64,000 nt of DNA from contig JAIQEU010000006.1 of the NCBI GenBank assembly GCA_020073665.1, positions 186,001-250,000 of the forward strand. Direction: 5' to 3'. The translations under genes were made by a program, and so were the position numbers. Source of the stretch: Terriglobia bacterium (lineage in GTDB: Bacteria; Acidobacteriota; Terriglobia; Terriglobales; Acidobacteriaceae). The notes under the pieces were generated by a model. It made no database searches, had not been told where the DNA came from, and worked only from the letters and a program-made list of their open reading frames with translations. Positions 1,302-18,117 of this stretch are shown in pieces. How positions within the stretch are numbered: the stretch's first letter is position 1; every line of letters begins with the position of its first letter.

Positions 1302-1424
1302 CAGTCACCTCGGAGTTACCCGATAAAGTTACGAACCACTCCCAAGCAGAGTAAAACGCATGACCGCCTTGGTTTGTTCATCGCCCTGTCAGGATTTAAC
1401 AGCTGCTGATCCCGCGAGTCCTAT

Positions 1425-1452
1425 TGCGGATCGCGGCTTCGACGACTAGAAT
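1425..1452 (+). promoter_or_regulatory. Candidate sigma-70 promoter for the TPR gene
   Basis: TTGCGG (1425-1430), a 16-bp spacer and TAGAAT (1447-1452). Transcription from here would begin near 1459, after the divergent nucleoside hydrolase start and about 95 bp before the preferred ATG at 1553. The -35 match is only partial. Confidence 0.3.
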
Positions 1453-1552
1453 ACGCGCGCACGACTGATTGCGCCTCACCTTTTCGATTCGCGTTCGTCC
1501 TATGGGTTGTCCCCGCTTGAACGCACACCAATCCGGACACTCTGGAGCGGGT

Positions 1553-3148: not shown

Positions 3149-3164
3149 AACGCGCCATGTCTAT

Positions 3165-3572: not shown

Positions 3573-4933
3573 TGGACAAGCCCGCTGCCGGTTCCACTCC
3601 TCACACCTTCCGCGCCGTCGATCTCATCCGCAAGAAGCGGGATGGGGGCGAATTGTCGCGCGCGGAAATCGACTACCTGGTGCGTGGTAACACCAGCGGC
3701 GATATCCCTGATTACCAGGTATCCGCGTGGCTGATGGCGGCTCTGCTTCGCGGTCTCTCGCGCGCCGAGACCGCCGCCCTCACCGATGCCATGCTGCACT
3801 CCGGCGTGGTGCTGGACCTCTCTGCTCTGAGCGCGAGGAAGGTGGACAAGCACTCAACCGGCGGCGTGGGCGATAAGACTTCGCTGGTGCTCGCGCCGGT
3901 CGCTGCCGCCGGCGGGCTCGCGGTCCCCATGATCAGCGGACGCGGGCTGGGCCACACCGGCGGTACTCTCGACAAGTTGGAATCTATTCCCGGATTCAAT
4001 GTAAATCTTCCAGTAGACCGCTTTCTCAGTGTCTTGCAAAAGTGCGGCTGCGCCATGATCGGGCAGACAGCAGAAATCGCTCCGGCAGACCGCAAGTTCT
4101 ACGCACTCCGCGACGTCACCGGCACGGTAGAGAGTCCGTATCTCATCTGTGCCTCCATCATGAGCAAGAAGCTGGCTGAAGGGATCGATGCGCTGGTGCT
4201 CGATGTGAAGACCGGTTCAGGCGCCTTCATGAAAAAGGAAGAGGACGCGGTCTTTCTGGCCGAGTTGATGGTCGAAACCGGGGAGCGGATGGGCAAGAAG
4301 ATGGCAGCCCTGATTACCGACATGGACCAGCCGCTGGGGCTGCATGTGGGTAATGCGCTGGAAGTGGAAGAGATTCTGGATGTGCTGCGTGGCGAAGGCC
4401 CTGACGATCTCCGCCAACTCTGCTTCGAACTGGCCGGTTGGATGTTCTACCTCGGAGAGCGCACCTCAACCGTAGCAGAGGGAAAGCAGTTGGCAGAGAA
4501 ATTGATCCGGTCCGGCGCGGCGGTGGAAACGTTCCGCAGCATGGTGGAACAGCAAGGTGGAGACCCAGGTGTGATCGACGATCCCAAGCGCCTGCCGCAA
4601 GCTAAGCACACTATGGTCGTAACCAGCCCGAGGGACGGATATGTTACAGCGATCGCCTGCGAACAAGTGGGTACGGCCTGTGTGATCCTGGGCGGTGGCC
4701 GTGAGCGCAAAGAAGATGCTGTAGACCCGGCGGTTGGGCAGGTTCTGCACAAGAAGGTTGGTGACCGCGTCACCAAGAGCGAGCCGTTGTGCACGATTCA
4801 CTACAACTCCGAAGATCGCGCAGCGCGTGTCACGCAGTTGATGGAAGAAAGCTACCGGATCGACGAAGCACCTCCCAGGCAGCAAAGGCCGCTGATTCAC
4901 CGAGTCATTCCAACTACTGGAGAGAAAAACTAA
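3572..4933 (+). CDS. deoA: Pyrimidine-nucleoside (thymidine) phosphorylase
   Basis: 453 aa, GTG start overlapping the cytidine deaminase stop by one base, with GGAAGGA upstream inside cdd. Splits uridine, thymidine or deoxyuridine with phosphate into base plus (deoxy)ribose-1-phosphate. The glycosyltransferase family 3 signature SGRGLGHTGGTLDKLE is intact, preceded by the phosphate/substrate stretch KHSTGGVGDKTS. MSKKLAEGIDALVLDVK carries the usual base-contacting lysine region. It takes the product of the deaminase encoded just before it and uridine imported by the transporter encoded after it. Bacillus-type pdp is an equally valid name; substrate range between thymidine and uridine cannot be read from sequence. 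Confidence 0.93.
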   Translation: MDKPAAGSTPHTFRAVDLIRKKRDGGELSRAEIDYLVRGNTSGDIPDYQVSAWLMAALLRGLSRAETAALTDAMLHSGVVLDLSALSARKVDKHSTGGVGDKTSLVLAPVAAAGGLAVPMISGRGLGHTGGTLDKLESIPGFNVNLPVDRFLSVLQKCGCAMIGQTAEIAPADRKFYALRDVTGTVESPYLICASIMSKKLAEGIDALVLDVKTGSGAFMKKEEDAVFLAELMVETGERMGKKMAALITDMDQPLGLHVGNALEVEEILDVLRGEGPDDLRQLCFELAGWMFYLGERTSTVAEGKQLAEKLIRSGAAVETFRSMVEQQGGDPGVIDDPKRLPQAKHTMVVTSPRDGYVTAIACEQVGTACVILGGGRERKEDAVDPAVGQVLHKKVGDRVTKSEPLCTIHYNSEDRAARVTQLMEESYRIDEAPPRQQRPLIHRVIPTTGEKN

Positions 4934-6181
4934 ATGGGCCGATTCACCGGTATTCTCGGTCTGCTCACCATGCTGGGCCTGGCATTCGCCTTCTCCACTA
5001 ACCGCAAGGCCATTCGCTTGAAAACGGTAGCCTGGGGGCTGGGGCTGCAAATCGTCTTTGCGGTGTTTGTGCTTAAAGTGGAGATCGGCCGCCAGATCTT
5101 CCAAAGCGCTGGAGACACGGTCAACCGGCTGCTCCGCTATGCTTTTGCGGGCTCGCAGTTTGTGTTTGGCGACCTGGGGAAACAAGGCTCGCCCATGGGA
5201 TTTTATTTTGCCTTCCAGGTACTGCCGACCATCATCTTCATCGCGGCGTTTTTCGCGGTGCTCTACCACTACGGGGTGATGCAGTTCATCATTAAGCAGG
5301 TGGCCCGGGTCATGACGCGCTTCATGGGCGCAAGCGGCGCCGAATCACTGAACGTGGCTGCGAGCATTTTCATGGGGCAGACCGAGGCGCCTCTAACCAT
5401 CCGACCGTTCCTGCCAGACCTGACCCGCTCCGAACTGATGACGGTCATGACCAGCGGCATGGCGCACGTTTCCGGCGGAATTATGGCCGCCTACATCGCA
5501 TTCGGTATCGATCCTAAACACCTGTTGAGTGCGGTGATCATGACTGCGCCGGGCACCATCCTGATGGCCAAGATGCTGGTGCCGGAGACGGAGGCACCCA
5601 AGACCGCCGGTAAAGTCGTGATGAGCGAAGATGAAGAGGAGGCGGAGAGAAGCGAGAACCTGCTGGGCGCGATTGCGCGAGGGACTACGGACGGTCTGCA
5701 CCTGGCGCTCAATATCGCGGCCATGCTGATCTCGTTTCTGGCGCTGATTGCGTTGGCGAACGGCATTATGGGCGGAATCCACAATGGTCTGGCGCACTTC
5801 GGGATCACGTGGTTCCCATCCAGCCTGGAACAGGTTTTTGGCACGCTGTTTGCCCCGGTGGCATGGGTGATCGGAATCCCGTGGCACGACTGCCCCGCAA
5901 TTGGCAGCCTGCTGGGAACGCGCATGGTGCTCAACGAACTGGTCGCATTTTCTCAGCTCGGACCGCAGAAGGGGATTCTCGATCCGCGTTCCTTCACGAT
6001 TGCAACGTTCGCGCTATGTGGCTTCGCGAACCTCAGTTCGATCGGAATTCAGATCGGTGGCATCGGGGCACTGGCGCCCAACAAGAGGGGTGAACTGGCC
6101 AAGCTCGGCGTACGCGCCATGTTGGCAGGGACCATGGCCAACCTGATGTCGGCCTCCATCGCAGGCATGCTGCTTTCTTGA
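4934..6181 (+). CDS. nupC: Concentrative nucleoside transporter (CNT/NupC family)
   Basis: 415 aa integral membrane protein whose ATG directly follows the phosphorylase stop. It imports nucleosides with H+ or Na+. CNT hallmarks include the nucleoside-binding stretch GQTEAPLTIRPFL, the SGMAHVSGG loop and the C-terminal GFANLSSIGIQIGG segment. About ten hydrophobic segments are visible, plus a short acidic cytoplasmic loop (SEDEEEAERSE). With cdd and deoA it forms an import-and-degrade unit for pyrimidine nucleosides. The next gene is convergent, only 15 bp away. Confidence 0.92.
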   Translation: MGRFTGILGLLTMLGLAFAFSTNRKAIRLKTVAWGLGLQIVFAVFVLKVEIGRQIFQSAGDTVNRLLRYAFAGSQFVFGDLGKQGSPMGFYFAFQVLPTIIFIAAFFAVLYHYGVMQFIIKQVARVMTRFMGASGAESLNVAASIFMGQTEAPLTIRPFLPDLTRSELMTVMTSGMAHVSGGIMAAYIAFGIDPKHLLSAVIMTAPGTILMAKMLVPETEAPKTAGKVVMSEDEEEAERSENLLGAIARGTTDGLHLALNIAAMLISFLALIALANGIMGGIHNGLAHFGITWFPSSLEQVFGTLFAPVAWVIGIPWHDCPAIGSLLGTRMVLNELVAFSQLGPQKGILDPRSFTIATFALCGFANLSSIGIQIGGIGALAPNKRGELAKLGVRAMLAGTMANLMSASIAGMLLS

Positions 6182-6196
6182 AGCGAGCCGGATTCG

Positions 6197-6829
6197 CTAG
6201 CCAGCTTTGCTGGCCGGCTTGGCTTTTGCCAGAGCCAGAGCCTGGTCCGTGCTGATCATTCTTACCCCGAGCGATTGAAGTTCAGCGATGGTCCGGTGTC
6301 CGTCGGCAGGGTTTAAAGTCTCAATGGCATCCCGCACAACAGAAACCCTGCGCCCGCGCTCCCGTAAACCCATGGCGGCGAAGCGAACGCAGTATTCAGT
6401 TACCACGCCGAACACTACAAATTCGGCTTCCCGCGGCAAGCGCTCCACCAGCGCATCCGCATGGCAGCTCTCGAAGATGTTTAGAGTTTGCTTCTCGAGG
6501 AGGATCTGCTGGAACTTCGACAGGTCTGCGGGCAGGGAAGCCGAAGGCAGGTTCGGGACTTTCGCCACTTTCTCAGTGAGCGCTTCGGGCACGAGTTGGG
6601 CTCCAACCGTTCCCTGCAGGCAGTGGGGCGGAAAGGTCGCGAATTCGGGATCGCCTTCGGGGTGGAAACAGCCGTGTGAAACTAGGAATACTTCTCCGCT
6701 GCGTGCGGCATCCGTCAGGCGACGGAGGTTGGGCAGCAATTTTTCCGCTCCCGGCACGTACAGCTTGCCGCCGGGGAGCATGAAATCGGCTTGGGCATCG
6801 ACTTCCCAGAACACGAGATCAGATCGCAT
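6197..6829 (-). CDS. Nicotinamidase-like cysteine hydrolase (isochorismatase superfamily)
   Basis: 210 aa. The catalytic triad of the superfamily is visible: D11 in VDAQADF, K113 in LLEKQTLN and C147 in VVTEYCVR. FPPHCLQGTVGA strongly resembles the PPHC.xGTPGA segment of PncA nicotinamidases, which deamidate nicotinamide to nicotinate. The metal site differs: where PncA has D-x-H and a second His six residues on, this protein has C54-F-H56 and Pro at the second position, while H69 is kept. It is divergently placed from the enamidase and shares the intergenic region with its promoter and putative operator. This supports feeding nicotinamide into nicotinate breakdown, but another amide substrate is possible. 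Confidence 0.72.
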   Translation of the reverse strand: MRSDLVFWEVDAQADFMLPGGKLYVPGAEKLLPNLRRLTDAARSGEVFLVSHGCFHPEGDPEFATFPPHCLQGTVGAQLVPEALTEKVAKVPNLPSASLPADLSKFQQILLEKQTLNIFESCHADALVERLPREAEFVVFGVVTEYCVRFAAMGLRERGRRVSVVRDAIETLNPADGHRTIAELQSLGVRMISTDQALALAKAKPASKAG

Positions 6830-6931
6830 GCAATTTTCCTGACGCGCTTTTCCTACAGAGTTGAGGATGCGAGCTTATTTTGTTTGCCGGCGGATGGCAA
6901 GCTTCCAGGTGCTTGTCTGACCGCGATCCGC

Positions 6932-6959
6932 TTGCACGCACCGGAATCATTTGTATACT
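6932..6959 (+). promoter_or_regulatory. Candidate sigma-70 promoter for the enamidase gene
   Basis: TTGCAC (6932-6937), a 16-bp spacer and TATACT (6954-6959). The predicted start near 6966 leaves a roughly 90-nt leader before the ATG at 7056. This also argues against the upstream TTG at 6951, which lies inside the -10 region. Confidence 0.45.
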
Positions 6960-6964
6960 AGCGG
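6949..6964. promoter_or_regulatory. Putative operator ATTTGTATACTAGCGG overlapping the enamidase -10
   Basis: A 16-bp element, 14 of 16 bases identical to one at 15635-15650 upstream of the hydroxylase/reductase operon. The core TTGTATAC resembles half-dyad operators of GntR regulators of the FadR/VanR (FCD) class. Overlap with the -10 would fit repression. It lies between the divergent nicotinamidase-like and enamidase genes, so it could serve both. No regulator gene is in the window. Confidence 0.5.
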
Positions 6965-7055
6965 ACGCAAAGCCGCCGCTGCGGGATCATTCCACAACTT
7001 CCACATGCACGGAACCTGGGAGCGATTCCAAATCTGCAGCAAATGGGTAGGAGCC

Positions 7056-8255
7056 ATGGCTCATGACGAACCTACGAAGGCCAGTGGTCCGAACAAGCTG
7101 GTAGTCCGTAATATTGGCCTTCTGCTGTCCGGGGACTTGCGAAGCCCGATTCTCGATGCTGACACGGTGGTCGTGCTCGATGGAAGAATTGCAGCCGTAG
7201 GCAAAGAGAAAGACGTCGATACCGCAGCCGCCACGACGACCATCGACGCCAAGGGAACTGCGCTCGCTCCCGGGCTGATTGATAGCCACGTTCATCCCGT
7301 CGCGGGCGACTGGACGCCGCGGCAGAACCAGTTGGGTTGGATTGACAGTTGCCTGCACGGCGGCGTAACCACGATGGTCTCGGCGGGAGAGGTGCATACC
7401 CCGGGGCGCCCGAAGGACGTGGTCGGGCTGAAAGCCATGGCCGTTTTTGCCCAGCGTGCGTTCACGGCATTTCGGCCCGGTGGGGTGCGAGTGTACGCCG
7501 GAGCGCCGGTGATCGAGCATGGCATGGTCGAAGACGACTTCAAGGAACTGGCCGCGGCCGGGGTTACGATTCTCGGCGAGATCGGACTGGGTAGCGTCAA
7601 GGATGGCAAGACGGCGCGGCAGATGGTCTCCTGGGCGCGAAAATACGGCATTCAGAGCACCATCCACACTGGCGGCCCATCCATTCCTGGCTCCAGCCTC
7701 ATCGACAAAGATATGGTGCTCGAGACCGATGCTGACGTCATCGGACACATCAACGGCGGCCACACGGCCTTGCCCGATGATCAAATCGTTGCCCTCTGCG
7801 AACGCTCCACGCGAGCGCTTGAGATTGTGCACAACGGCAACGAGCGTGCTGCTCTGTTAACCCTGCGCACTGCCAAGGACCTCAAGAAACTCGGCCGGGT
7901 GATTTTGGGGACCGACTCGCCCGCAGGTTCGGGAGTGCAGCCATTGGGCATTCTCCGCATGATCTCGTTGTTGTCGTCAGTGGGAGATATCCCGGCGGAA
8001 GTTGCAGTCTGCTTCGCCACCGGCAACACGGCAAAGATACGCAATCTTGATTGCGGGCTGGTAGCGCCCGGCCGCGCGGCAAATTTCGTGATGATGGACC
8101 GCGCGCAGCATTCGGCGGGCAAGGACCTGCTCGAGAGTATTCAACTCGGTGACTTGCCCGGCATTGGGATGGTGATCATCGACGGTGCCATCAGCACCCA
8201 ACGAAGCCGCAACACGCCGCCGGCGACCACGGTACCCGAGGTCGTGAAACACTGA
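7056..8255 (+). CDS. ena: Enamidase (6-oxo-1,4,5,6-tetrahydronicotinate amidohydrolase)
   Basis: 399 aa amidohydrolase. In Eubacterium barkeri nicotinate fermentation, enamidase hydrolyses 6-oxotetrahydronicotinate to 2-formylglutarate and ammonia. From memory of that protein the match runs end to end: NIGLLLSGDLRSPILDADT, the SCLHGGVTTMVSAGE loop, FRPGGVRVYAGAPVIEHGM, STIHTGGPSIPGSS, GHINGGHTALPD, AVCFATGNTAKIR and a closing SRNTPPA. Metal ligands include SHVHP (HxH) and the bridging acid region GEIGLG. Start chosen at ATG 7056, after AGGAG; ATG 7005 is possible and 6951 lies within the promoter. It is convergent with the operon at 8451-15580, which supplies the preceding steps. Confidence 0.85.
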   Translation: MAHDEPTKASGPNKLVVRNIGLLLSGDLRSPILDADTVVVLDGRIAAVGKEKDVDTAAATTTIDAKGTALAPGLIDSHVHPVAGDWTPRQNQLGWIDSCLHGGVTTMVSAGEVHTPGRPKDVVGLKAMAVFAQRAFTAFRPGGVRVYAGAPVIEHGMVEDDFKELAAAGVTILGEIGLGSVKDGKTARQMVSWARKYGIQSTIHTGGPSIPGSSLIDKDMVLETDADVIGHINGGHTALPDDQIVALCERSTRALEIVHNGNERAALLTLRTAKDLKKLGRVILGTDSPAGSGVQPLGILRMISLLSSVGDIPAEVAVCFATGNTAKIRNLDCGLVAPGRAANFVMMDRAQHSAGKDLLESIQLGDLPGIGMVIIDGAISTQRSRNTPPATTVPEVVKH

Positions 8256-8288
8256 AGGTGATCGGCATGCATTTTGCAGCGGAAGAAA

Positions 8289-8313
8289 AGGGTGAGCCAC
8301 TGCGGCTCGCCCT
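8289..8313. terminator. Hairpin between convergent enamidase and DUF1185 operon
   Basis: AGGGTGAGCC, a 5-nt loop and GGCTCGCCCT form a 10-bp stem with one G-U pair, about 35 bp after the enamidase stop. There is no clean T-run on either side, so factor-independent termination is only a possibility. The rest of the 8256-8450 gap shows no gene. Confidence 0.35.
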
Positions 8314-8450
8314 GGCATTCGCTGCGGCTCTTTTCGCTTAGTCTGCCGCAGCCGTGTCTTTGCCGGGACCAACGACCTATCCGCGCCGCGGGGGTGCCAG
8401 TTGACCTGTTGGTACTTGAGCCTCCCGGGCGTCGCTCCCTGCGCGACTTA

Positions 8451-9035
8451 CTACCGAAGCCCATCCTCACCTTTGATCTGATCTTTCGTCAGGCCACCCA
8501 CCCGCGGCAGCGGGCGTCCGCTATCGGTGACGGCAATCGCCACCATGATCTCGTTGGCGCGGGGCGCGTCGTTGATTCGTACCTCCATGCCGTCGAAGTG
8601 GCTGCGCACAAAGGCGGCGTCTTTGTGGCCCAGGGGTATGTCGAGAACAACGCCGGGGCCGCCGCGTTTCTTTGACGACGGGATGAGTGCCGCTCCTTTT
8701 CCCAACACTCGCCGTACCGGTGTTCCCAGCTTTGGATGCAAGATGGCCGCGGCATGTTCGATCTCGCCGTTCTCTCCGACTGCGGCCGCTTTGCCGTAAC
8801 TTTCGGCTGTGGTGGGGGGAATTCCCAGGGCGGCAACAGCTTTCTGGGTCAGCAGTTCTCCCAACTCCTCCCCAATCGTCATCAGCTCAGACAGATCCTC
8901 GACATACTTCCCGGCAAAGGGATTGTCAATCACCGCCACGGCCGCGGCCCGCCGGGTAGGCGGTTTCACACTGCGCCCCATTTCCGTGAGTGTCTCCTCC
9001 AGAAACACCGCCACTTTGCGGATCTTCGCCTTCAT
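8451..9035 (-). CDS. PF06684 (amino acid synthesis, DUF1185) family protein, copy A
   Basis: 194 aa, last gene of the minus-strand operon; its ATG overlaps the stop of copy B by 4 bp. The two copies are clearly homologous: RRAA..V.DNPFAG.YVED, YGK.A.VG..GEIEHAA, GG.G..LDIP..H..A..VRSHFD.ME, and an identical tail IKGEDGLR. Solved members of this family show a variant of the Bacillus chorismate mutase fold; no reaction is established as far as I know. Conserved placement beside 6-hydroxynicotinate reductase suggests a step in, or protection during, N-heterocycle breakdown. Polar residues such as the GEIEHA and RSHFD motifs are obvious active-site candidates. Confidence 0.8.
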   Translation of the reverse strand: MKAKIRKVAVFLEETLTEMGRSVKPPTRRAAAVAVIDNPFAGKYVEDLSELMTIGEELGELLTQKAVAALGIPPTTAESYGKAAAVGENGEIEHAAAILHPKLGTPVRRVLGKGAALIPSSKKRGGPGVVLDIPLGHKDAAFVRSHFDGMEVRINDAPRANEIMVAIAVTDSGRPLPRVGGLTKDQIKGEDGLR

Positions 9036-9616
9036 CTCAGTCCGTCCTCTCCTTTGATCTCGGATGCCTTGAGCCCGCCGACGCGGGCATGAATTCTTGC
9101 TCCCGTCGTCATGACCAGCGCCAGCAATATCTCGTCGGAACGCGGGGCATCAGCCAATCCGATTTCCATGGCGTCGAAATGGCTGCGGACATAGGAGGCG
9201 TTGATGTGGGTGATGGGTACATCCAGCCGCGTGCCGGGGCCGCCAACTTTCTTGGTGGACGACACAATGGCCTGGGCGCCTCCTAGAACTTCGCGCATGG
9301 CGTACCCCCCGGGAACGTGCCACAACGCCCCATGCTCAATTTCTCCCGCCGTCCCCACGATCGCGCCCTTGCCATAGCCCTCGACAACTTTGGCGTCTCC
9401 TCCCAGCGCTTCCACCAGCGCTCGCGCCATGTCGAGGCCCAGAGGCTTGAGGTCATCCATGAAGCCCGCGATATTTTCGATGTAGGCGCCGGCAAATGGA
9501 TTGTGAATCACGACCAGCAGCGCCGCCCGCCGCAGTGGGGTCGACGCGACCGCTCCTCCCTCGTGGAAAATCTCCTCGACAACGGTCAGCTTCTTGCGAA
9601 CTCGGACTTCAGGCAT
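9032..9616 (-). CDS. PF06684 (amino acid synthesis, DUF1185) family protein, copy B
   Basis: 194 aa from ATG 9616, which has AGGAG eight bases upstream; an in-frame ATG at 9655 would overlap UPF0280 by 47 bp. It is a paralogue of the following gene with the same core motifs (HNPFAGAYIENI, GKGAIVGTAGEIEHGA, PGTRLDVPITHINASYVRSHFDAMEIGLADAPRSDE split over the mid and late part). Tandem homologues in one operon suggest a heteromeric complex or two successive substrates. The start overlaps the UPF0280 stop by 8 bp, so translation is probably coupled. Confidence 0.8.
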   Translation of the reverse strand: MPEVRVRKKLTVVEEIFHEGGAVASTPLRRAALLVVIHNPFAGAYIENIAGFMDDLKPLGLDMARALVEALGGDAKVVEGYGKGAIVGTAGEIEHGALWHVPGGYAMREVLGGAQAIVSSTKKVGGPGTRLDVPITHINASYVRSHFDAMEIGLADAPRSDEILLALVMTTGARIHARVGGLKASEIKGEDGLR

Positions 9617-10499
9617 GGACCAGGCTCCTGGAGGAAGAAAGCATACTCGCAGCATCGGGTGGAGCCACGACTCGGGTCTCGCGGTTCAGGCACAGTGCCG
9701 CCGACCTGATCAGTCCCGCCGCCAGCAGCGATTCTGCAACCGCGGCTCCGGCCGCGAGTGCGGCTCCGGTTTCGGTGGGAAGCAGCTCTCCTACGAACCG
9801 GGTCACTGGGTAATTTCCCAGATCGCAGTCAGGTGCAATCTCGCAGGCGGGCTGACGCACGATGTTGGGGTGGCCGGGCAGATTCACCGCATTGGCGATG
9901 ATGGTTGCCGCCGCGTCGGCCATGGCCGCGTGGTCGGCGAGCACGGTGACAGCATCCGCAATGCCCAGGGAGAAGCTACGTCCCCGCCACCCGCTGGTGG
10001 CGATGCCGCGCACAGGCTGCGACGCTTGCAGCGTAACGGCTCCGAATAGCGAAGGCCGGTCCGGACACTCGATCATCCCTGCGACAAATTGCTCGCCCGG
10101 CGAAAGATGGAACGCTATGTCGCCGCCGTTGTTCACGTAAGCCTTCGCCAAGGTCGCCGCGGAGGTCATGGCCTCTAGAATTTCCTCGGCGACCGCTCCC
10201 GCCACCGCAGCCATGGGCGTGATGAAGCAACGCTCGGCATAAGGTGCCACCGCCAGCGCCATCCGTCTGGCCACCACGCCCGAGGGCAGGGAAACTCCCG
10301 ATCGTGCCGGCAGGCGGAGAAGTGGGAGTTCGCTGCAGAGTTCATCCAGCACCGTCACGAAGCGGTGTGCCGCCGCTCGGTAAGCTGACTGAACCTCTTC
10401 CTGCGTGCCGAACGCCTCCACGATCAAGTCGATGGGTCCATCGTGCAGATAGAGGCGCCGCCCATCGGGAAGCAGTCGGACCTGGGGCGGTTCTCTCAT
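9609..10499 (-). CDS. UPF0280 family protein (ApbE-like fold)
   Basis: 296 aa, ATG overlapping the stop of the reductase gene by 4 bp. Recognised by the UPF0280 pattern: an N-terminal LYLHDGPIDLIVEAFG, central FITPMAAVAGAVAEEI, YVNNGGDIAFHL and GIATSGWRGRSFSLGIADAVTVLA. These are related to ApbE flavin transferases (GGDI and the metal-binding TSG...ADAVTV region), but the family lacks a proven activity. The setting next to a flavin-dependent reductase makes flavin handling or flavinylation an attractive guess. No ApbE target motif was noticed in the neighbouring proteins, so this stays a guess. Confidence 0.78.
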   Translation of the reverse strand: MREPPQVRLLPDGRRLYLHDGPIDLIVEAFGTQEEVQSAYRAAAHRFVTVLDELCSELPLLRLPARSGVSLPSGVVARRMALAVAPYAERCFITPMAAVAGAVAEEILEAMTSAATLAKAYVNNGGDIAFHLSPGEQFVAGMIECPDRPSLFGAVTLQASQPVRGIATSGWRGRSFSLGIADAVTVLADHAAMADAAATIIANAVNLPGHPNIVRQPACEIAPDCDLGNYPVTRFVGELLPTETGAALAAGAAVAESLLAAGLIRSAALCLNRETRVVAPPDAASMLSSSRSLVHA

Positions 10500-11965
10500 T
10501 TCTCCGACCTCGGGGGTTTGGATGCCGACAGCGGCCAGGGATTCTCCGGGTTAGCTTGGACATGCCGGCGGCCTCCTTCAGGCATGATCGAAGACAAGGG
10601 GCGGACAGAATCCATGTAGCCCCCCAGAGCCGCGTAATCCGCGAGCTTCAAGGTGAACTCAATGGGGGCAACAATTGCCGGGGTGGGAACATAACCGAAA
10701 GCGTTCTCGGGCATGCGAGTCACATCTACCATGAGTGTGATACCGCCGCCAGGCCAGACGTACACCGGAGCGCCCCCGCACGTGACCTGGGTCAGCGCGT
10801 CTCGTACCGAGTGCGTCAGCCGCACCGGATTCTCTGTCACCCCCGCGCGCAACGACCCGCCTGCTCCCCCCATGAACAGAACCGTGCACAGCGCCGGTTC
10901 GCAATTCTCCTTGATCCTGGCTACCGACTCTTGCAGCGAGGGTGGTAGATCTTTTTCAACCGGCCGCAGGACATCGTCGAGTTCGAAGTAAGCGGAGTGC
11001 TCTCCGGTGGTGCTCACCATGAGCAGGCGCAGGCCGGGCCAGGCAGACTTTTTGTCAAATGGCTTCAAAATCGAGAGCGGGTCCTCTATATCGGTGCCGC
11101 CCCAAGCCGTGCCGGGCTCAGCCACCTGGAAATACCGGCCGGGAGTGGAACGCCGTCCTTTCAGCTTGATTCCGGTCTCGGGTATCCCCAGCAGTTTGCC
11201 CGCCTGGTGCTCCGACAGCACGCCGGTAATGTGATCGTCCACGACCACTACGTCATCCACCTTGCCGAACCATTGCTTGGCAAACATGCCGATGGTCGCC
11301 GACCCGCATCCGACTCGCATGCGTTCTTCCAGCGTGCCATCCACGACCGGTGGCTTCCCGGCTTGCACCAACACGCGGGCGCCTTCGTCAATCTGCAACT
11401 CCACCGCCTTGCCATTACACAGGTCGAGTAGAGTCTCGCAGGTAACGGTGCCTTCGCGACGGCTTCCACCGGTCAGATGGCGCACCCCACCAAGCGAGAG
11501 CATCTGCGATCCGTACTCGCTGGTGGTAACGTGCCCCACGGGCTCGCCTTGTGCCCGCACCAGGTTGCGCTCAGGTCCGAGGTGGCGGTCGGTGTCGATT
11601 TTCAGCTTGACTCCGCAATAACTGAAGATGCCCTCGGTCACCACTGTCACCATATCCACGCCGGCTACTTCTGAGGAGATGATGAAGGGCGCCGGTTTGT
11701 AGTCCGGATAAGTGGTGCCCGCGCCAATGGCGGTCACAAAAGGTTCCGGGCTGTTGACGATGTTGCCGTCCCACTCGCGGCTGTTTTCGAGAAAGGGAAC
11801 GATGGAATCTCCACGTGACAGCGCGTGGTCGAGTACCACGTGCGGATCCAGTCGCACCAACTGTCCCTCACGATTACCGTAGCGGTCGCAAGCTCCCGTC
11901 CGGCCCGGTTTGATGTAACAGAGGACTGGGCAGGCATCGCAGCGGATGGCATCGTCGTCAGGCAT
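10496..11965 (-). CDS. hnr: 6-hydroxynicotinate reductase
   Basis: 489 aa from ATG 11965, chosen because GGAGG lies five bases upstream; an upstream in-frame ATG at 12004 adds 13 residues inside the hydroxylase gene. The N-terminus carries a four-cysteine Fe-S motif, C9-DA-C12-PVL-C16 followed by GRTGAC26DRYGN, as remembered for 6-hydroxynicotinate reductases. In E. barkeri this Fe-S flavoprotein uses reduced ferredoxin to make 6-oxotetrahydronicotinate, the substrate of enamidase. Other landmarks are GIFSYCGVKLKIDTDRHLGPE, HVTTSEYGSQMLSLGGV, HLTGG and a C-terminal GGGITLMVDVTRMP. Its stop overlaps UPF0280, and the hydroxylase stop overlaps its start by 8 bp. Together with ena this is strong evidence for a reductive nicotinate route. 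Confidence 0.82.
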   Translation of the reverse strand: MPDDDAIRCDACPVLCYIKPGRTGACDRYGNREGQLVRLDPHVVLDHALSRGDSIVPFLENSREWDGNIVNSPEPFVTAIGAGTTYPDYKPAPFIISSEVAGVDMVTVVTEGIFSYCGVKLKIDTDRHLGPERNLVRAQGEPVGHVTTSEYGSQMLSLGGVRHLTGGSRREGTVTCETLLDLCNGKAVELQIDEGARVLVQAGKPPVVDGTLEERMRVGCGSATIGMFAKQWFGKVDDVVVVDDHITGVLSEHQAGKLLGIPETGIKLKGRRSTPGRYFQVAEPGTAWGGTDIEDPLSILKPFDKKSAWPGLRLLMVSTTGEHSAYFELDDVLRPVEKDLPPSLQESVARIKENCEPALCTVLFMGGAGGSLRAGVTENPVRLTHSVRDALTQVTCGGAPVYVWPGGGITLMVDVTRMPENAFGYVPTPAIVAPIEFTLKLADYAALGGYMDSVRPLSSIMPEGGRRHVQANPENPWPLSASKPPRSEK

Positions 11966-14747
11966 GTGGACCTCCGCGGCGGGTAGCGGCCAGTACAGTG
12001 GCACGCACGCGATCGGGCGTGGCAGGGACCTTGTGGATGCGTGCTCCTATTGCGTCATGGATCGCGTTGAGGATCGCCGGGGCGGTCGGGATCACCGCTT
12101 GCTCACCGATGCCCTTCGCGCCGAATGGGCCGACTGGCGATGCATCTTCGATCAGGATGGACTCGACGGGGGGCACATCGCCGGACGAGGGAATCAGGTA
12201 GTCGTGCAGGTTCTCGCCCGTTCCAGGGAAGAACTCTTCCATGAGCGCCATACCTAACCCTTGGGCGACGCCGCCCTCGATCTGACCTTCAATGAGCGTG
12301 GGGTTGATGGCCCGGCCCACGTCATGAGCTGCCGTGACCTTGAGTACCTTTACCGTACCCAGTTCGAGGTCAACTTCGATCTCTGCCATGTGCGCACCAA
12401 AACCAAAAGCCGCGTAGGGTGTGCCCTGGCCATTCTCGTCAAGCGGGCTGGTCAGCGGATCAAAAGTGGCTTCGCTGGTGAGCACGTAGCCATGTTTGTC
12501 CAAGGGTAGATCCCCGAGCTTGACAGTGTGCCGCTTCTCTTCCTCGACGATGGTGATGCACCCGTCTCCGAATTCGATCGTCGCACACTCGCAACCCTTC
12601 GCCAGGCGCAGGATCGCACTCCGCAAGGCGGTTCCTGCCATGTGTGCTGCCTTGCCGGTGACAAAAGTCTGGCGTGACGCGGAGGTCTTTCCGCAGTCGG
12701 GAGTGATCGCGGTATCGCCGGAGAGAAGATCGAACCGATCTATGGGAGCGACCAGCGCATCCGCACAAATCTGGGTGACGATAGTGTTCGATCCTTGTCC
12801 AATGTCCACCGCGCCTTGGTGCAGCGCAATCCTGCCGTCGCGCTTTAAGCCCATACGGACTGTGGACGGATTCGGAAGCGATGTATTTCCGCAGCCATAC
12901 CACATGCCGGCAATCCCGACGCCCCTGCGAAGCGGTTCCTTGGCGGCTGCATTGAACGTCGCAGCTTCGGCACGTGCCGTACTCCATTTCGGCCGCAAGG
13001 CCTCGAAGCACGCGCGGATTCCTACGCCCTCGCCGAGCACCTGCCCGGTGACCGTCGGCGTCTGGTCGTCCAGCGCGTTCATGACGCGGAACTCCAGGCG
13101 ATCAATCCCACAGCGGTCGGCAAGGTCGTCGTAAAGCTGTTCCTGAGCGATGGCGCCCTGGGGCACGCCGAATCCGCGAAACGCTCCCGCGGGCGTCTGA
13201 TGCGTGTGCACGGCCCGAGTGAGCGCGCGGTAGTGAGGCACGTAGTAGGGACCGGAGGCGTGCACGGGGACGCGGGCAGCGACCGTAGGACCCCACGATG
13301 AATACGCGCCGGTATTGAAGTCCGCAGCAAAATCCATGGCCACGAGCTTGCCGTCCTTCATCGCGCCGGCACGTGCACGCATGCGTGCAGGATGACGCTT
13401 GGTGGTGCTCATGATCGATTCGACCCGCGAGTAGACCATCCGAACGGGTCGCCGTAGGTGCCAGGCTGCCAGTGCGATGAAAGGCTGAACTGAGAGATCC
13501 AGCTTGGCGCCGAAACCGCCGCCCACCGCGGTGGGAATGATGCGCACTGCTTCCGGTGTGATTCCGAGGATGGCCGCGATGTCGGCTCGATCCATGTACG
13601 GAGATTGGGTGCAGGCCTGAATTTCAATCTGATCGCCAACGCGCCGTGCAAAGCCCGCTTCGGGTTCGATATAGGCGTGCTCGACAAAGCCAGTCTCGTA
13701 TTCGCCGTCCACCACGATGTCCGCTTCGGCGAGCGCTCTCTCCACGTCGCCACGTACCACCCGGCCGCGGACCAGCACGTTGCCTTCGCGGTTGGCGTGT
13801 ACCAGCGGTGCATCGGGAGCCAGCGCGGCATCGATTGTGGTCAGGGGCGGCAGCTGTTCCCACGAAACCGGAAAATTCGCGGGATCAAGCGCTTCGATCA
13901 CTTTCTCTTCCCCCACCACAGCTGCCACCGCCTCACCCCGGAATCGAGACTCCTTCTCGGCGAAGACCGGTTGATCTGCGAAACGTGGAATCACGCCAAA
14001 GCAGTTTTTCCCGGGAATATCTCCGGCAGTAAAGACTGCATGGATACCGGAATGGGCCGTGACAAACGCCGCAAGATCACCGAAGTCAAAGCGCGCGCGG
14101 TGGTGCGGGCTGCGGATGACTCGAACCGCAAGCGCTCCCGCCGGAATCTCATCCGCACCGAAGATCTCGGTACCGTCTGCTTTACGTTTGCCGTCGAGGC
14201 GCACCAGGCGTTTTCCAACCGCCTTTCCGGCTGCAGCAGAACATTCTGGGGATCGTTTTGCGCGTGCCTCCAGCACAGCGGTAATGATCTTGCGATAGCC
14301 GGTGCAGCGACAAAGGACCCCGCCGATTGCGTCCATCACTTCGGTCTCGCTTGGCGACTGCGTTCGCTCCAGCAGGGCGGTGGCAGCCACCAGCATCCCG
14401 GGAGTGCATATTCCACACTGTGCCGCCCCATGCTCCAGAAACGATCGCTGCAGGTTGTCGTAAAGTGGCGCACGGCTCGCCAAGCCTTCGACCGTCGTGA
14501 TCTCGCAGTTCTCGACCTGGCCTGCGGCCACCAGGCAAGAGCAGACGGGGGCGCCGTCTAGCAAGACCGTACACGCCCCGCAATCGCCGGCATCACAGCC
14601 GACCTTCGTCCCCATCAAGCCGAGTTCGTCGCGCAGCACTCGGGATAGCCGCTGCACAGGCGAAGTCGCAACTTTAACCCGGCGGCCATTCACAGAGAAC
14701 GTCAGCTCTACCTCAACTGGTGTGACGGCCGTGGCGCTGGTTGTCAT
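11958..14747 (-). CDS. Molybdenum hydroxylase, [2Fe-2S] and molybdopterin domains fused (nicotinate dehydrogenase-like)
   Basis: 929 aa, xanthine oxidase superfamily. Residues 11-90 form the plant-type [2Fe-2S] domain (C51, C56, C59, C71); 95-170 hold the second cluster (C111, C114, C146, C148 in CGICTPG and CRCTGY). From about 180 onward is the molybdopterin domain with VGGGFGAKLD, AGAFRGFGVPQG, GQGSNTIVTQ and the catalytic base E882 in GAKGIGEQAV. The FeS-Moco fusion recalls Desulfovibrio aldehyde oxidoreductase, but here a separate FAD subunit is encoded upstream, overlapping by 4 bp. In context the reaction is hydroxylation of nicotinate to 6-hydroxynicotinate; xanthine or another N-heterocycle cannot be excluded from sequence alone. 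Confidence 0.85.
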   Translation of the reverse strand: MTTSATAVTPVEVELTFSVNGRRVKVATSPVQRLSRVLRDELGLMGTKVGCDAGDCGACTVLLDGAPVCSCLVAAGQVENCEITTVEGLASRAPLYDNLQRSFLEHGAAQCGICTPGMLVAATALLERTQSPSETEVMDAIGGVLCRCTGYRKIITAVLEARAKRSPECSAAAGKAVGKRLVRLDGKRKADGTEIFGADEIPAGALAVRVIRSPHHRARFDFGDLAAFVTAHSGIHAVFTAGDIPGKNCFGVIPRFADQPVFAEKESRFRGEAVAAVVGEEKVIEALDPANFPVSWEQLPPLTTIDAALAPDAPLVHANREGNVLVRGRVVRGDVERALAEADIVVDGEYETGFVEHAYIEPEAGFARRVGDQIEIQACTQSPYMDRADIAAILGITPEAVRIIPTAVGGGFGAKLDLSVQPFIALAAWHLRRPVRMVYSRVESIMSTTKRHPARMRARAGAMKDGKLVAMDFAADFNTGAYSSWGPTVAARVPVHASGPYYVPHYRALTRAVHTHQTPAGAFRGFGVPQGAIAQEQLYDDLADRCGIDRLEFRVMNALDDQTPTVTGQVLGEGVGIRACFEALRPKWSTARAEAATFNAAAKEPLRRGVGIAGMWYGCGNTSLPNPSTVRMGLKRDGRIALHQGAVDIGQGSNTIVTQICADALVAPIDRFDLLSGDTAITPDCGKTSASRQTFVTGKAAHMAGTALRSAILRLAKGCECATIEFGDGCITIVEEEKRHTVKLGDLPLDKHGYVLTSEATFDPLTSPLDENGQGTPYAAFGFGAHMAEIEVDLELGTVKVLKVTAAHDVGRAINPTLIEGQIEGGVAQGLGMALMEEFFPGTGENLHDYLIPSSGDVPPVESILIEDASPVGPFGAKGIGEQAVIPTAPAILNAIHDAIGARIHKVPATPDRVRATVLAATRRGGPHA

Positions 14748-15580
14748 GCGTGACTCCCCGCGCAGAGCTCAAGTACGCGCCGGACCAGCAGCAAGGCCGC
14801 GTCTGTGCGGTAGGCAGCCGGCGCCCGGACATCGTCGATCGGAGAAAGTCGGGAAAGGTGCTCGGGTTTGACCAGGGAACCAAGTCCGGGACCGAAGGGT
14901 GCACCAGCCAGAACCGTCTCTAGCTCGGTCAACCTCTGGGCGGTCACGGAGCATGCTCCGACCGCGACTCGAGCTTCCGCAATCCGACCGTGCTCATCGG
15001 GCACCAGCAGTGCCGCCACCATGGCAATCGAAATCACTAAGTAGCGTCGCGCACCCAGCTTCAGAAAGGCGGATACTCCTTCATTCCCTCGGCAGGGAAT
15101 GACCACAGTTGCAAGGATTTCATCCGGGCGGCGCACCGTTTTTCGATTGCCCACAATAAAGTCGCTGACCCGCACTCGCCGCCTGCCCGCAGCAGAAACC
15201 AGTTCGACCTCGGCATCGAGCACCAGCAGCGGAGGGACTCCGTCAGCCGCGGGCGACGCGTTGCAGAGGTTGCCCGCAATTGTGCCGCGGTTCTGGATCT
15301 GGACGCCCCCAACCTCGCGAGCGGCTGCCCTCAGCGCGTCAAAGCGCCGGGGAAGTGGAGTGGCAACGATTTCGCTCCAGGTCGTAGCCCCTCCGATCCG
15401 TATGTGGTCGGCCGCGATGGAGATGCCTTGGATCTCAGTGAGAGCGGTAACGTCAATGACGATCCCCGTGCTCGGACGATCGCCGAGGGCTGGGAAAAAA
15501 TCTGTTCCGCCGGCCAGAACCCGGCCTCCGCGAGCAAGCGCCTCGCTAGCTTCGCTGAGTGTTCTGGGCCTGAGGTACAA
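14744..15580 (-). CDS. FAD-binding subunit of molybdenum hydroxylase (CoxM/XdhB-like)
   Basis: 278 aa from a TTG at 15580 with GGAG nine bases upstream; the open frame continues to another TTG at 15691, but those residues run through the putative operator and look non-coding. VYLRP-type start (here LYLRPRTLSEASEAL), the first FAD loop VLAGGTDFFP and the second TIAGNLCNASPAADG are the family's two pyrophosphate-binding signatures. It passes electrons from the Mo/Fe-S subunit to an external acceptor. Stop and the next ATG overlap by 4 bp. It is the first gene of the six-gene operon. Confidence 0.8.
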   Translation of the reverse strand: MYLRPRTLSEASEALARGGRVLAGGTDFFPALGDRPSTGIVIDVTALTEIQGISIAADHIRIGGATTWSEIVATPLPRRFDALRAAAREVGGVQIQNRGTIAGNLCNASPAADGVPPLLVLDAEVELVSAAGRRRVRVSDFIVGNRKTVRRPDEILATVVIPCRGNEGVSAFLKLGARRYLVISIAMVAALLVPDEHGRIAEARVAVGACSVTAQRLTELETVLAGAPFGPGLGSLVKPEHLSRLSPIDDVRAPAAYRTDAALLLVRRVLELCAGSHA

Positions 15581-15634
15581 GGGTACGCGCTCCGGTGGGG
15601 CCTGTTGACTGCCGGTCCGGCGAGATTTCCCGTT

Positions 15635-15650
15635 ATTTGTATACCAACGG
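15635..15650. promoter_or_regulatory. Putative operator ATTTGTATACCAACGG upstream of the hydroxylase operon
   Basis: Matches 14 of 16 bases of the element at 6949-6964. It lies about 55 bp before the FAD-subunit start. In minus-strand orientation it contains TATACA, which may act as the -10. A second TGTACA dyad (CTTGTACAG) sits about 20 bp away. Together these suggest one transcription factor serving both promoters. Confidence 0.5.
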
Positions 15651-15742
15651 TCTGGTCTTGTACAGCCAACCGCATGGCCCTTTCGGCTCAACCGCGGCTA
15701 TCCTTGCCAACCGCCGCCGCCGCCGCTTATGATGCACCAGCC

Positions 15743-16318
15743 ATGAACTCGCCATCTTTACCCAACCCCGTGAAAATTCAGCAGAAAGCCCAGCTGATGT
15801 CAGCCTCGGAAATCGATCGAACGTTGACTCGCTTGGCTTACGAAATCATCGAAAAGAACAACGGCACGGAAGGTCTGGCGCTGGTCGGCATTCGTCGCCG
15901 TGGCGTCCCCCTGGCACAGCGACTCGGCCAGATGATCGAGCGCATTGAGAAGCAGCCGGTGAGAGTAGGCACACTCGACATCAGCCTTTATCGCGACGAT
16001 CTTTCCACGCTGGGACCAAAGCCCGTGGTGCAAAAAAAGGAAATCGGAGTCGACATTGCCGGCAAGTTCGTGGTGCTGGTTGACGACGTGCTCTACACCG
16101 GGCGCACCGTGCGCGCCGCAATGGACGTGCTCTTTCATGAAGGAAGGCCGGGCCGGGTCCAACTTTGCGTCCTGATCGATCGCGGCCATCGCGAGTTGCC
16201 CATCGAGGCCGCATTTATCGGCCGCACCGTTCAGACCACGCAACGGGAAATCATCGAGGTCAAATTGCGCGAGATCGACGACGCGGAAAAAGTTTTGTTG
16301 ATGGAAAAGCAAGGGTGA
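15743..16318 (+). CDS. pyrR: PyrR bifunctional pyrimidine operon regulator / uracil phosphoribosyltransferase
   Basis: 191 aa. The PRPP-binding signature VVLVDDVLYTGRTVRAA and the preceding LALVGIRRRGVPLAQRL are typical of PyrR. So is the late VLIDRGHRELPIEAAFIGRTV stretch (read in two parts), which separates it from plain Upp enzymes. The ATG at 15743 gives the usual PyrR length; a longer open frame from 15404 is antisense to the FAD subunit gene. No pyr biosynthetic gene follows: the next gene is formate-THF ligase, so any RNA-binding attenuation target must lie elsewhere. The salvage genes at 3165-6181 are a metabolic but not genetic neighbour. Confidence 0.9.
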   Translation: MNSPSLPNPVKIQQKAQLMSASEIDRTLTRLAYEIIEKNNGTEGLALVGIRRRGVPLAQRLGQMIERIEKQPVRVGTLDISLYRDDLSTLGPKPVVQKKEIGVDIAGKFVVLVDDVLYTGRTVRAAMDVLFHEGRPGRVQLCVLIDRGHRELPIEAAFIGRTVQTTQREIIEVKLREIDDAEKVLLMEKQG

Positions 16319-16479
16319 CCCCAGGCCGCACGGTACCGGAAAATGCAGTAGTAGAGCCGCCCATATATTAAAGAGGCCGGACCAAGTCACAACGGTCGCA
16401 GTCACCCATCATTGACCTTTTCCCGAACCAGCATTTGGCAACCAGCAGTTGGTAACTCTCCGTGTCGGAAGGAGCCTGC

Positions 16480-18117
16480 ATGCAGTCTGAACTAAGGCCG
16501 ATCAAGCAGATTGCGGAAAAGTTTGCCATAGAGGACCAGTACCTGGAGTTTTGGGGTGCTCACATGGCGAAGCTGCGGTTGGAACTTCTCTCCGCTTCAC
16601 GGCCGCCTACTAAACGCAAATTGATCCTCGTAACCGCGATGACCTCCACCAGCAGCGGTGAGGGCAAGACGGTCACCTCTATTGGACTGGCGCAAGCCTT
16701 GGAAAAAATCGGCAAGAAAGCGGTGGTTACGCTGCGCGAGCCGTCGCTGGGCCCGGTATTCGGCCTGAAAGGCGGAGCCACCGGAGGCGGTCAATCCCAA
16801 GTGGAACCCAGCGATCGAATCAATCTCCACTTCACCGGCGACTTCCATGCGGTGACGGCTGCCCACAACCTGCTGGCTGCGATGCTCGACGCCCACATCC
16901 ATCACGGCAACGTCCTGCGCGTGGACGTAAACAGCATCATGTGGCCGCGCACCATGGACATGAACGATCGGGCGCTGCGAAGCATTGTCACTGGACTAGG
17001 CGGGCATACCAACGGACCAGCGCGGGAAACCGGCTTTGTGATCACTGCTGCATCCGAGGTCATGGCGATTCTCGCACTCTGTTCTGGCCAGCAGGACCTG
17101 CGGCGGCGTTTGAACGAAATTATGGTGGGTTTTGATTTGGATGGTAAACCGGTTCGGGCTGCAGACCTGAAGGCGACCGGCGCAATGATGGTGCTGTTGA
17201 ATGACGCCCTCAAGCCAAACCTGGTGCAGACCACCGAGGGCACACCCGCTATCGTGCACGCCGGACCATTTGGAAACATTGCCCACGGCACCAGCAGCGT
17301 CTTGGCGCAAAGGATGGCTCTGCACCTCGCGGATTATGTGGTCAACGAGAGCGGATTCGGTTCGGACCTGGGGGCAGAGAAATACTTCGACTTGGTCATG
17401 CCCGCGGCAAATCTGCAGCCTGCGGTTGCGGTGATTATCACTTCCAGCCGATCCCTCGTAAGGCATGCCGGAAAGACTGCGGGCACGGGAGATCAGGCTT
17501 TTCGTGCTGGCTTCGAGAATCTCGCCAAGCATGTAGAAAACCTCAAGAAATTTGGTGTTCCCATCGTCGTTGCGCTCAACCGGTTCACATCCGACACACC
17601 CGAACAGTTGCGTGCGATCCAGTCATTCTGTTCGAGCCTGGGGGTCGAGAGTGCGGTCTCCGAGGTCTACGCGAAGGGTGGAGCGGGTGGCATCGAGTTG
17701 GCAGAGAAGGTCGTGACAGCGGCCGATTCGGCGGTGCCCAGGGAACTGAAGCCGCTTTATCCGACTACTGCGAGCCTCACGGAGAAGATCGAGACGGTGG
17801 CGAAGCAGATTTACGGTGCGGGGGAAGTTGTGTTCGAATCCGCCGCAAAAAAGAAACTGGAGAAGTTCACGGAGCTGGGTTACGGAACATTGCCGGTCTG
17901 CATGGCCAAGACACAGGCGTCGTTGACCGACGACCCAACGATACTGGGTGCGCCCCGGGGCTGGACCCTGACTGTAAGCGATGCCTTGCTGTCAGCCGGT
18001 GCGGGCTGGGTCGTGGTGGTTCTGGGCGAGATGATGCTCATGCCGGGCCTCGGCAAGTCGCCCCAGGCAACAAAACTCGATGTGGACGAACTAGGCGTGA
18101 TCCAGGGAATGAGTTGA
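16480..18117 (+). CDS. fhs: Formate--tetrahydrofolate ligase
   Basis: 545 aa. ATP-dependent ligation of formate to tetrahydrofolate, giving 10-formyl-THF for purine synthesis or one-carbon metabolism. The P-loop-like TSTSSGEGKTVTSIGLAQAL lies near residues 56-75, followed by REPSLGPVFGLKGGATGGG and NLHFTGDFHAVTAAHNLLAA, all hallmark segments. ATG 16480 has AGGAG six bases upstream; a GTG at 16462 would add six residues. Length is close to the usual 550-560. The gene's stop lies about 20 bp before the next gene. Confidence 0.95.
   Translation: MQSELRPIKQIAEKFAIEDQYLEFWGAHMAKLRLELLSASRPPTKRKLILVTAMTSTSSGEGKTVTSIGLAQALEKIGKKAVVTLREPSLGPVFGLKGGATGGGQSQVEPSDRINLHFTGDFHAVTAAHNLLAAMLDAHIHHGNVLRVDVNSIMWPRTMDMNDRALRSIVTGLGGHTNGPARETGFVITAASEVMAILALCSGQQDLRRRLNEIMVGFDLDGKPVRAADLKATGAMMVLLNDALKPNLVQTTEGTPAIVHAGPFGNIAHGTSSVLAQRMALHLADYVVNESGFGSDLGAEKYFDLVMPAANLQPAVAVIITSSRSLVRHAGKTAGTGDQAFRAGFENLAKHVENLKKFGVPIVVALNRFTSDTPEQLRAIQSFCSSLGVESAVSEVYAKGGAGGIELAEKVVTAADSAVPRELKPLYPTTASLTEKIETVAKQIYGAGEVVFESAAKKKLEKFTELGYGTLPVCMAKTQASLTDDPTILGAPRGWTLTVSDALLSAGAGWVVVVLGEMMLMPGLGKSPQATKLDVDELGVIQGMS

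Follow-up and report, generated by a model that had tools for sequence, protein, structure and literature searches.

Reductive breakdown of nicotinate through 1,4,5,6-tetrahydro-6-oxonicotinate (THON) is described for Eubacterium barkeri and Azorhizobium caulinodans (PMC9304392), and in A. caulinodans the route is reported to proceed from THON onward through glutarate (PMC3511419). A block of eight genes predicted to encode the first steps of such a route is found in a Terriglobia bacterium of the Acidobacteriaceae (assembly GCA_020073665.1), in a stretch of 64,000 nucleotides, hereafter the window, that covers bases 186001-250000 of contig JAIQEU010000006.1 within a 5.4 Mb genome. The favoured reading, given a probability of about 0.8, is that a hydroxylase, a 6-hydroxynicotinate reductase (Hnr) and an enamidase would catalyse the first three steps, that they belong to the aerobic type, and that their genes were transferred from an alphaproteobacterium. 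A first-pass annotation had placed a nicotinamidase-like gene and genes for these three enzymes here, reading the latter as the E. barkeri path from nicotinate to 2-formylglutarate. Pfam, NCBIfam and PDB comparisons, from which the gene assignments derive, confirm that these genes lie here, and the three-step assignment is well supported by homology and co-occurrence. E. barkeri is not the best model, however: Hnr is of the aerobic type and groups with Xanthobacteraceae and Dongia. The model pathway moves instead to the aerobic one of Azorhizobium, because Hnr has no ferredoxin domain, the genome has no 2-methyleneglutarate mutase and a glutaryl-coenzyme A (glutaryl-CoA) dehydrogenase is present. 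A UPF0280 gene and two DUF1185 genes had been overlooked; they become candidates for a maturation factor of Hnr, a protein for which no solved fold was matched, and for proteins acting in the fate of 2-formylglutarate. The pathway is ordinary in kind and new in place, and it carries two specific hypotheses at the family level.

The genes occupy window positions 6197-15691, slightly past 15580, where the block had been thought to end. The nicotinamidase-like and enamidase genes are divergent, while the other six form a minus-strand run with overlapping ends, arranged as in one operon.

6197..6829, minus strand: isochorismatase-fold, nicotinamidase-like (PncA-like) hydrolase; PF00857; best PDB match pyrazinamidase/nicotinamidase, E 4e-17
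7056..8255, plus strand: enamidase; phmmer E 1.5e-114 to 2VUN over nearly the whole length; open reading frame (ORF) listed from 6951, start inferred
8451..9035, minus strand: DUF1185/AA_synth paralogue AA2, of the kind shared with E. barkeri-like loci; PF06684, E 3e-74; tree
9032..9616, minus strand: DUF1185/AA_synth paralogue AA1; PF06684, E 7e-70; matches 3BYQ and 2QTP; ORF listed to 9655, start inferred
9609..10499, minus strand: UPF0280/COG2122, ApbE-fold protein; NF003322, 405 bits, cut-off 290
10496..11965, minus strand: predicted Hnr, 6-hydroxynicotinate reductase of the aerobic type, by homology; ORF listed to 12004, start inferred
11958..14747, minus strand: fused [2Fe-2S] and molybdopterin subunits of the presumed nicotinate hydroxylase; Pfam Fer2, Fer2_2, MoCoBD_1 and MoCoBD_2
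14744..15691, minus strand: flavin adenine dinucleotide (FAD) subunit of the presumed nicotinate hydroxylase; PF00941 and PF03450; start codon uncertain

The enamidase has 47% identity to its E. barkeri counterpart (2VUN), and its His-x-His, Glu, His, His and Asp positions, which we take to be the metal ligands, are invariant across four aligned enzymes; its predicted reaction is the conversion of THON to 2-formylglutarate and ammonia. Hnr matches annotated Hnr, with 60.6-68.4% identity to that of 26 plasmid records, and carries the four-Cys cluster motif. Six cysteines, two of them outside this motif, are kept in 48-49 of 49 aligned Hnr. Pfam recognises FAD, [2Fe-2S] and molybdopterin domains in the hydroxylase, whose substrate is presumed to be nicotinate from homology and from linkage to Hnr: Hnr is present in every one of the 15 best among 1292 matching plasmid records. 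The nicotinamidase-like hydrolase (42 of 174 bits) falls far under the NCBIfam nicotinamidase cut-off. Of what we assume to be the Asp-Lys-Cys catalytic triad of nicotinamidase, Asp and Cys are kept in 19 of 19 aligned proteins and Lys falls in a gapped region; at one presumed metal-ligand position 15 of the 19 have Cys and the remaining 4 have Asp. Nicotinamide hydrolysis to nicotinate is its presumed reaction.

The proposed scheme starts with nicotinamide, which the nicotinamidase-like enzyme would convert to nicotinate. Judged by homology and linkage, the FAD/[2Fe-2S]/molybdenum hydroxylase would give 6-hydroxynicotinate; by likeness to characterised homologues, Hnr would reduce this to THON and the enamidase would open the ring. 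UPF0280 would mature Hnr, probably by installing its flavin, and the DUF1185 pair would handle the unstable enamine or the 2-formyl product. Loss of CO2 would then lead to glutarate semialdehyde or glutaryl-CoA and on to glutaryl-CoA dehydrogenase, not into the methyleneglutarate route of E. barkeri. This explanation is least secure where it assigns roles to UPF0280 and DUF1185 and where it traces the onward flow.

The samples used to survey conservation of the block comprised 300 genomes from the family of the host (79 genera) and 396 from its phylum. Hnr occurs in 27 of the 300, from 11 of the 79 genera, and DUF1185 and UPF0280 in 29 each. Hnr coincides with DUF1185 in 26 genomes and with UPF0280 in 26; all three are found together in 25 and any one in 30 (pairwise Fisher p 5e-33 or lower). 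Discordance is confined to G442, G455, G473 and G485, where the stretch stops at a contig edge inside the block, and G501, which has partial matches at contig edges only. The phylum sample has a strong Hnr match in the own genome only; four further weak matches (4/396, E 2e-4 to 1e-3) were treated as noise. Of the other 26 Hnr genomes, all except G487 and G501 supplied a stretch, and these 24 stretches repeat the gene order and orientation of the window in every case, as far as the contigs reach. The enamidase gene is present in 20 and the nicotinamidase-like gene in 18 of these loci; elsewhere the contig stops before the expected place, a reading that for L118 and L132 follows from the wider gap between enamidase and AA2 genes in L119 and L160. 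Because the order recurs in 24 loci and Hnr, DUF1185 and UPF0280 coincide across the 300 genomes, the arrangement is not due to chance: the block is one conserved unit. Aerobic-type nicotinate breakdown is thereby placed in about one tenth of the sampled genomes of an acidobacterial family. No report of a reductive nicotinate route in Acidobacteria was met in the literature searched, which lacked most subscription papers; the accessible part of PMC12874918 goes no further than to list, for a mushroom habitat, a predicted pathway.

Some genes of the related loci are broken: AA1 and the hydroxylase are each spread over two frames in L111, as are the hydroxylase in L112 and UPF0280 in L130, through pseudogene formation or assembly error.

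For comparison outside the Acidobacteria, loci were grouped by identity of their enamidase to that of E. barkeri: at least 54% defines the anaerobe-type or E. barkeri-like group (57 loci, L020-L075 and L078, mostly from Clostridia, other Bacillota and sulfate-reducing or syntrophic groups) and at most 49% the aerobic-type group (23 loci plus seven plasmid loci, L013-L019, making 30). These names stand for identity groups, not for measured lifestyle, and the locus list comprises the best 80 of 571 matches and is no census. The window Hnr is about 61-78% identical to the proteobacterial aerobic type and about 38-49% to the E. barkeri-like type. Two ferredoxin motifs precede the core Cys motif in 42 of 42 anaerobe-type, 0 of 22 aerobic-type and 0 of 10 acidobacterial Hnr, counted in frames where the pattern found the core motif (2 anaerobe-type, 3 aerobic-type and 14 acidobacterial frames went unread). 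Visual inspection of three of the 14 showed a four-Cys motif in which GSC stands in place of GAC; ferredoxin motifs are lacking in all three. The N-terminal ferredoxin motifs are absent from the window Hnr, which is classed as aerobic type because it shares this absence with the read aerobic-type and acidobacterial Hnr. The cofactors of E. barkeri Hnr are taken to be one [2Fe-2S] cluster, two [4Fe-4S] clusters and a covalently bound flavin. Two of these would be explained by the additional ferredoxin domain of the E. barkeri-like proteins, and since the motifs of that domain are missing here the iron-sulfur (Fe-S) cluster set of the window Hnr is probably different. Sequence comparison with the PDB gave no relative of Hnr at E up to 1 and Foldseek no match at E 0.001 or below; the best VIA match, to glycine cleavage T-protein, has Z 4.5 over 66 residues, which does not by itself show a new fold.

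An Hnr tree of 67 sequences, built by a quick method with odd-numbered anaerobe-type loci left out and long branches flagged among the anaerobe-type rows, unites the 25 acidobacterial rows in one clade (support 99). This clade groups at 96 with Dongia, Xanthobacter, Azorhizobium doebereinerae and Aquabacter, within the proteobacterial rows, and the 20 anaerobe-type rows lie on the other side of a branch supported at 100. One transfer of the unit from an alphaproteobacterium to an ancestor of the acidobacterial clade is the simplest reading of this topology. The G+C fraction is 0.619 in the block and 0.597 in the remaining window, a weak difference. That the host is acidobacterial is supported by a TonB-type protein encoded elsewhere in the genome: among the 15 matches listed of 24, those that cover 78-97% of it are all in Granulicella and Acidisarcina plasmids. 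For E. barkeri Hnr, that of Acetobacterium bakii (L020; enamidase 82% identical to that of E. barkeri) served as proxy, which counts against the favoured reading, as does the absence of a transporter from the block.

The aerobic clusters of A. caulinodans and Bradyrhizobiaceae SG-6C (L086, L094, L099) have the same type of Hnr, with UPF0280, DUF1185 and enamidase genes nearby. The window block shares with them the Hnr clade, the paired DUF1185 genes and the lack of ferredoxin motifs. Their hydroxylase is NicAB-like, whereas the acidobacterial block has the fused hydroxylase with an FAD subunit, as in Dongia (L085) and Sulfitobacter S190 (L017); the block also adds the nicotinamidase-like gene and holds no ATP-binding cassette (ABC) transporter. 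In the Dongia locus the genes follow the same order, except that a MarR gene is added and the nicotinamidase-like gene is missing. The E. barkeri cluster, represented by A. bakii, has in common with the block the enamidase, Hnr, UPF0280, one DUF1185 and a multi-subunit molybdenum hydroxylase. It differs in the two extra N-terminal ferredoxin motifs of Hnr, in a hydroxylase made of separate subunits, and in the presence of Hgd-, Mgm-, Mii-, Dml- and Dmd-like genes, which are absent from the acidobacterial block. The gene names at L020, aconitase-like included, were given from Pfam domains and the order of the pathway.

UPF0280 most likely matures Hnr, probably by flavin installation, to judge from its predicted fold and its linkage. 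The AlphaFold2 model (predicted local distance difference test score, pLDDT, 94) aligns in VIA with 2O34 at Z 20 and with the ApbE/Ftp/FmnB flavin transferases at Z 14-17 over 206-223 residues; the next structural group follows at Z 8.6. PF02424 is detected in 39 of 45 UPF0280 members at E up to 1 (best 4.6e-8; the window member, at 0.016, is under the curated cut-off), and 37 of the 45 keep the ADAxxT motif. Of 90 scorable loci, 82 have the gene immediately downstream of Hnr; that set of 90 excludes five stretches cut at this place and 16 without Hnr. Of the eight loci scored non-adjacent, L032, L048 and L060 do have an adjacent UPF0280 below the bit cut-off. Among plasmids, UPF0280 occurs in 27 records, including all 26 with Hnr. 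DUF39, the other known partner of UPF0280, was found in 0 of the 300 family genomes; it is present in 17 of 21 anaerobe-type genomes, so that the two UPF0280 roles are inseparable there.

The 27th plasmid, from Hydrogenophaga sp. BPS33 (L170, 8914-9846), carries UPF0280 near IS1071 transposases, and no Hnr is annotated in the stretch read; the record has four matches.

That UPF0280 is instead a sulfur-transfer or persulfide factor serving an Fe-S site of Hnr, with no part in flavinylation, is a real possibility, if the lesser one. The canonical ApbE target motif occurs in 0 of 49 Hnr, which counts against flavin installation and for a sulfur role; the two conserved cysteines beyond the four-Cys motif also favour the latter. 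The covalent flavin that we take E. barkeri Hnr to carry speaks for flavinylation, together with the retained ApbE fold and the ADAxxT motif. None of the 15 literature matches listed, of 34, joins ApbE and 6-hydroxynicotinate. The accessible text of PMC5764234 describes COG2122 as genetically tied to DUF39 and required with it for homocysteine synthesis, where UPF0280 is likewise needed with one enzyme; it suggests a persulfide role and states that the homology to ApbE does not seem to reach the flavin-binding region, a further point against flavin installation. The acidobacterial system differs from this one in the lack of DUF39 across the family sample.

Homology between Hnr and DUF39 is unsupported and was dropped (hhalign P 0.12; on trimmed columns 2 of 40 column-shuffled controls outscore the real pair, locally and globally). 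A VDVVT-type stretch in Hnr (window 11600-11671) resembles one in DUF39, a likeness that is not significant.

Either the unstable enamine or the 2-formyl product is the most likely target of the DUF1185 pair. Fourteen of 15 anaerobe-type genomes have exactly one DUF1185 gene and the other has two, and 17 aerobic-type genomes have two to four. A tree of 113 sequences, including the window and 8 of the 24 acidobacterial loci, places the AA1 rows (26 aerobic-type, 9 acidobacterial) on one side of a branch with Shimodaira-Hasegawa-like approximate likelihood ratio test (SH-aLRT) support of 99.5. By best match, AA1 is present in 27 of 30 aerobic-type, 24 of 25 acidobacterial (with the window) and 0 of 57 anaerobe-type loci; AA2 is also found in E. 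barkeri-like loci.

A possible role of the family comes from breakdown of trigonelline (N-methylnicotinate), in which, unlike in the block, the ring is cleaved by a monooxygenase and hydrolysis would yield 2-formylsuccinate, the shorter homologue of 2-formylglutarate. Like the block, the trigonelline cluster tgn holds a DUF1185 protein, TgnF. Since the nicotinate and trigonelline pathways, both with such products, share DUF1185, the analogy suggests that the family handles 2-formyl-dicarboxylate products. Ten plasmid stretches were chosen among 60 listed of 388 records with DUF1185. Seven have an annotated monooxygenase, flavin reductase or like, aldehyde dehydrogenase and alpha/beta hydrolase nearby, two have part of this set and one has none; a succinate-semialdehyde dehydrogenase is annotated near DUF1185 in 3 of the 10. 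We take the set to be the gene content of trigonelline degradation, and on this the tgn label rests. Hnr or UPF0280 is annotated in 0 of the ten stretches read. The 388 plasmid records rule out DUF1185 as nicotinate-specific, which counts against the favoured reading. A weakness of the proposed role is that AA2 cannot simply be a decarboxylase in E. barkeri-like loci, since 2-formylglutarate is kept whole there. The DUF1185 crystal-structure paper (PMC2954203) ties the family to the metabolism of amino acids, on the ground that genes for transport and metabolism of branched-chain amino acids lie nearby. That link can also be read otherwise, since a livK-like gene lies near 19 of 30 aerobic-type and 4 of 57 anaerobe-type loci for nicotinate.

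It is rather unlikely that AA1 and AA2 form one mixed hexamer, regulatory or scaffolding, without chemistry on 2-formylglutarate. Two solved DUF1185 proteins are hexameric in solution (PMC2954203), and attempts to detect an effect of the relative HcdD failed according to the accessible text of PMC7913881, which however cites the family member TgnF as a stimulator of the TgnE-dependent oxidation of succinic semialdehyde. A chemical role is further favoured by the AA1-bearing types, in which, at the thresholds used, 0 of 30 aerobic-type and 0 of 25 acidobacterial loci have an Hgd-like or a linked methylmalonate-semialdehyde dehydrogenase (MMSDH)-like gene.

On two short contigs assigned to Candidatus Hecatellales archaea (L069, 4747-5871; L071, 1378-2505), an enamidase-like gene is followed by DUF1185.

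The first-pass annotation noted that the later E. barkeri steps are missing from the window. This is borne out, and 2-methyleneglutarate mutase is absent genome-wide, its B12-binding part alone (query residues 464-581 of 613) matching other proteins. The 57 anaerobe-type loci divide into 19 with an Hgd-like gene (at least 45% identity), 16 with an aldehyde dehydrogenase of the kind found in L056, none with both and 22 with neither (Fisher p 4.5e-4, with thresholds chosen after the table was seen); L060 and L066 have a 35% Hgd match below threshold, and L060 also has the L056-kind enzyme. This MMSDH-like gene is linked to the enamidase in L042, L047-L050, L056-L058, L060, L065, L067, L068, L070, L073, L074 and L078. 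The L056 enzyme scores best with the MMSDH model (387 bits, under the 448.5 cut-off). Among 15 enzymes with readable columns GQRC is kept in all, and the second Arg, which presumably binds the substrate carboxylate, is Arg in 5 only. By analogy with methylmalonate semialdehyde, the L056-kind enzyme would yield glutaryl-CoA and CO2, making an oxidative branch to glutaryl-CoA possible in these loci. A succinate-glutarate CoA-transferase-like gene (504 bits, under the 750 cut-off) is linked in 6 of 30 aerobic-type loci, which fits the reported glutarate route.

The own genome has a glutaryl-CoA dehydrogenase (435 bits) and one MMSDH over the cut-off, and an exit through glutaryl-CoA is possible. 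Against it, the MMSDH gene lies among aminotransferase-like genes, so that its role may differ, and no succinate-glutarate CoA-transferase was found in the genome. An aldehyde dehydrogenase at 19936-21441 was rejected as the next enzyme: its best NCBIfam matches, phenylacetaldehyde and betaine aldehyde dehydrogenases, are below cut-offs, and such a gene occurs in 3 of 25 acidobacterial pieces, the window included. Release of formate to feed the neighbouring fhs gene was dropped, fhs being found in 0 of 24 related pieces.

The most specific combination of these ideas has UPF0280 as a dedicated flavin transferase, or other maturase, of Hnr with a non-canonical target site, and DUF1185 acting on 2-formyl dicarboxylates, 2-formylglutarate here and 2-formylsuccinate in trigonelline breakdown. 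AA1 would be a non-oxidative 2-formylglutarate decarboxylase giving glutarate semialdehyde, and in sulfate reducers and some other anaerobes the linked MMSDH-like enzyme would do the same step to glutaryl-CoA. As a joint proposal this is speculative and, taken whole, unlikely.

It is improbable that the hydroxylase and both ring-processing enzymes have a pyrimidine or some other N-heterocycle as substrate, the neighbours being genes of pyrimidine nucleoside salvage. This reading draws on cdd, pdp, nupC, PyrR and nucleoside hydrolase genes, some of them named from their sequence, that flank the block in the window, and on pdp and nupC flanking it in 6 of 24 related loci. The other 18 pieces, however, keep the eight genes together without those neighbours, the enamidase aligns with the nicotinate enzyme over nearly its full length, and the nicotinamidase-like gene accompanies the block in every locus whose contig reaches its expected place (18 of 24). 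Weaker still, and highly improbable, is that the block runs the E. barkeri fermentation with its later genes elsewhere in the genome: the first three enzymes are in common and A. bakii has Hgd-, Mgm-, Mii-, Dml- and aconitase-like genes around its enamidase, but the mutase is not found genome-wide, an Hgd- or Mgm-like gene occurs in 0 of 25 acidobacterial pieces, the window included, and Hnr is of the other type.

The genes on either side of the predicted nicotinate block (window 222-6181 and 15800-18117) encode a nucleoside hydrolase, cytidine deaminase, pyrimidine nucleoside phosphorylase, NupC transporter, PyrR and formate-tetrahydrofolate ligase, several of these names being presumed from the sequence. 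A supply line of nicotinamide riboside from the nucleoside genes is conceivable.

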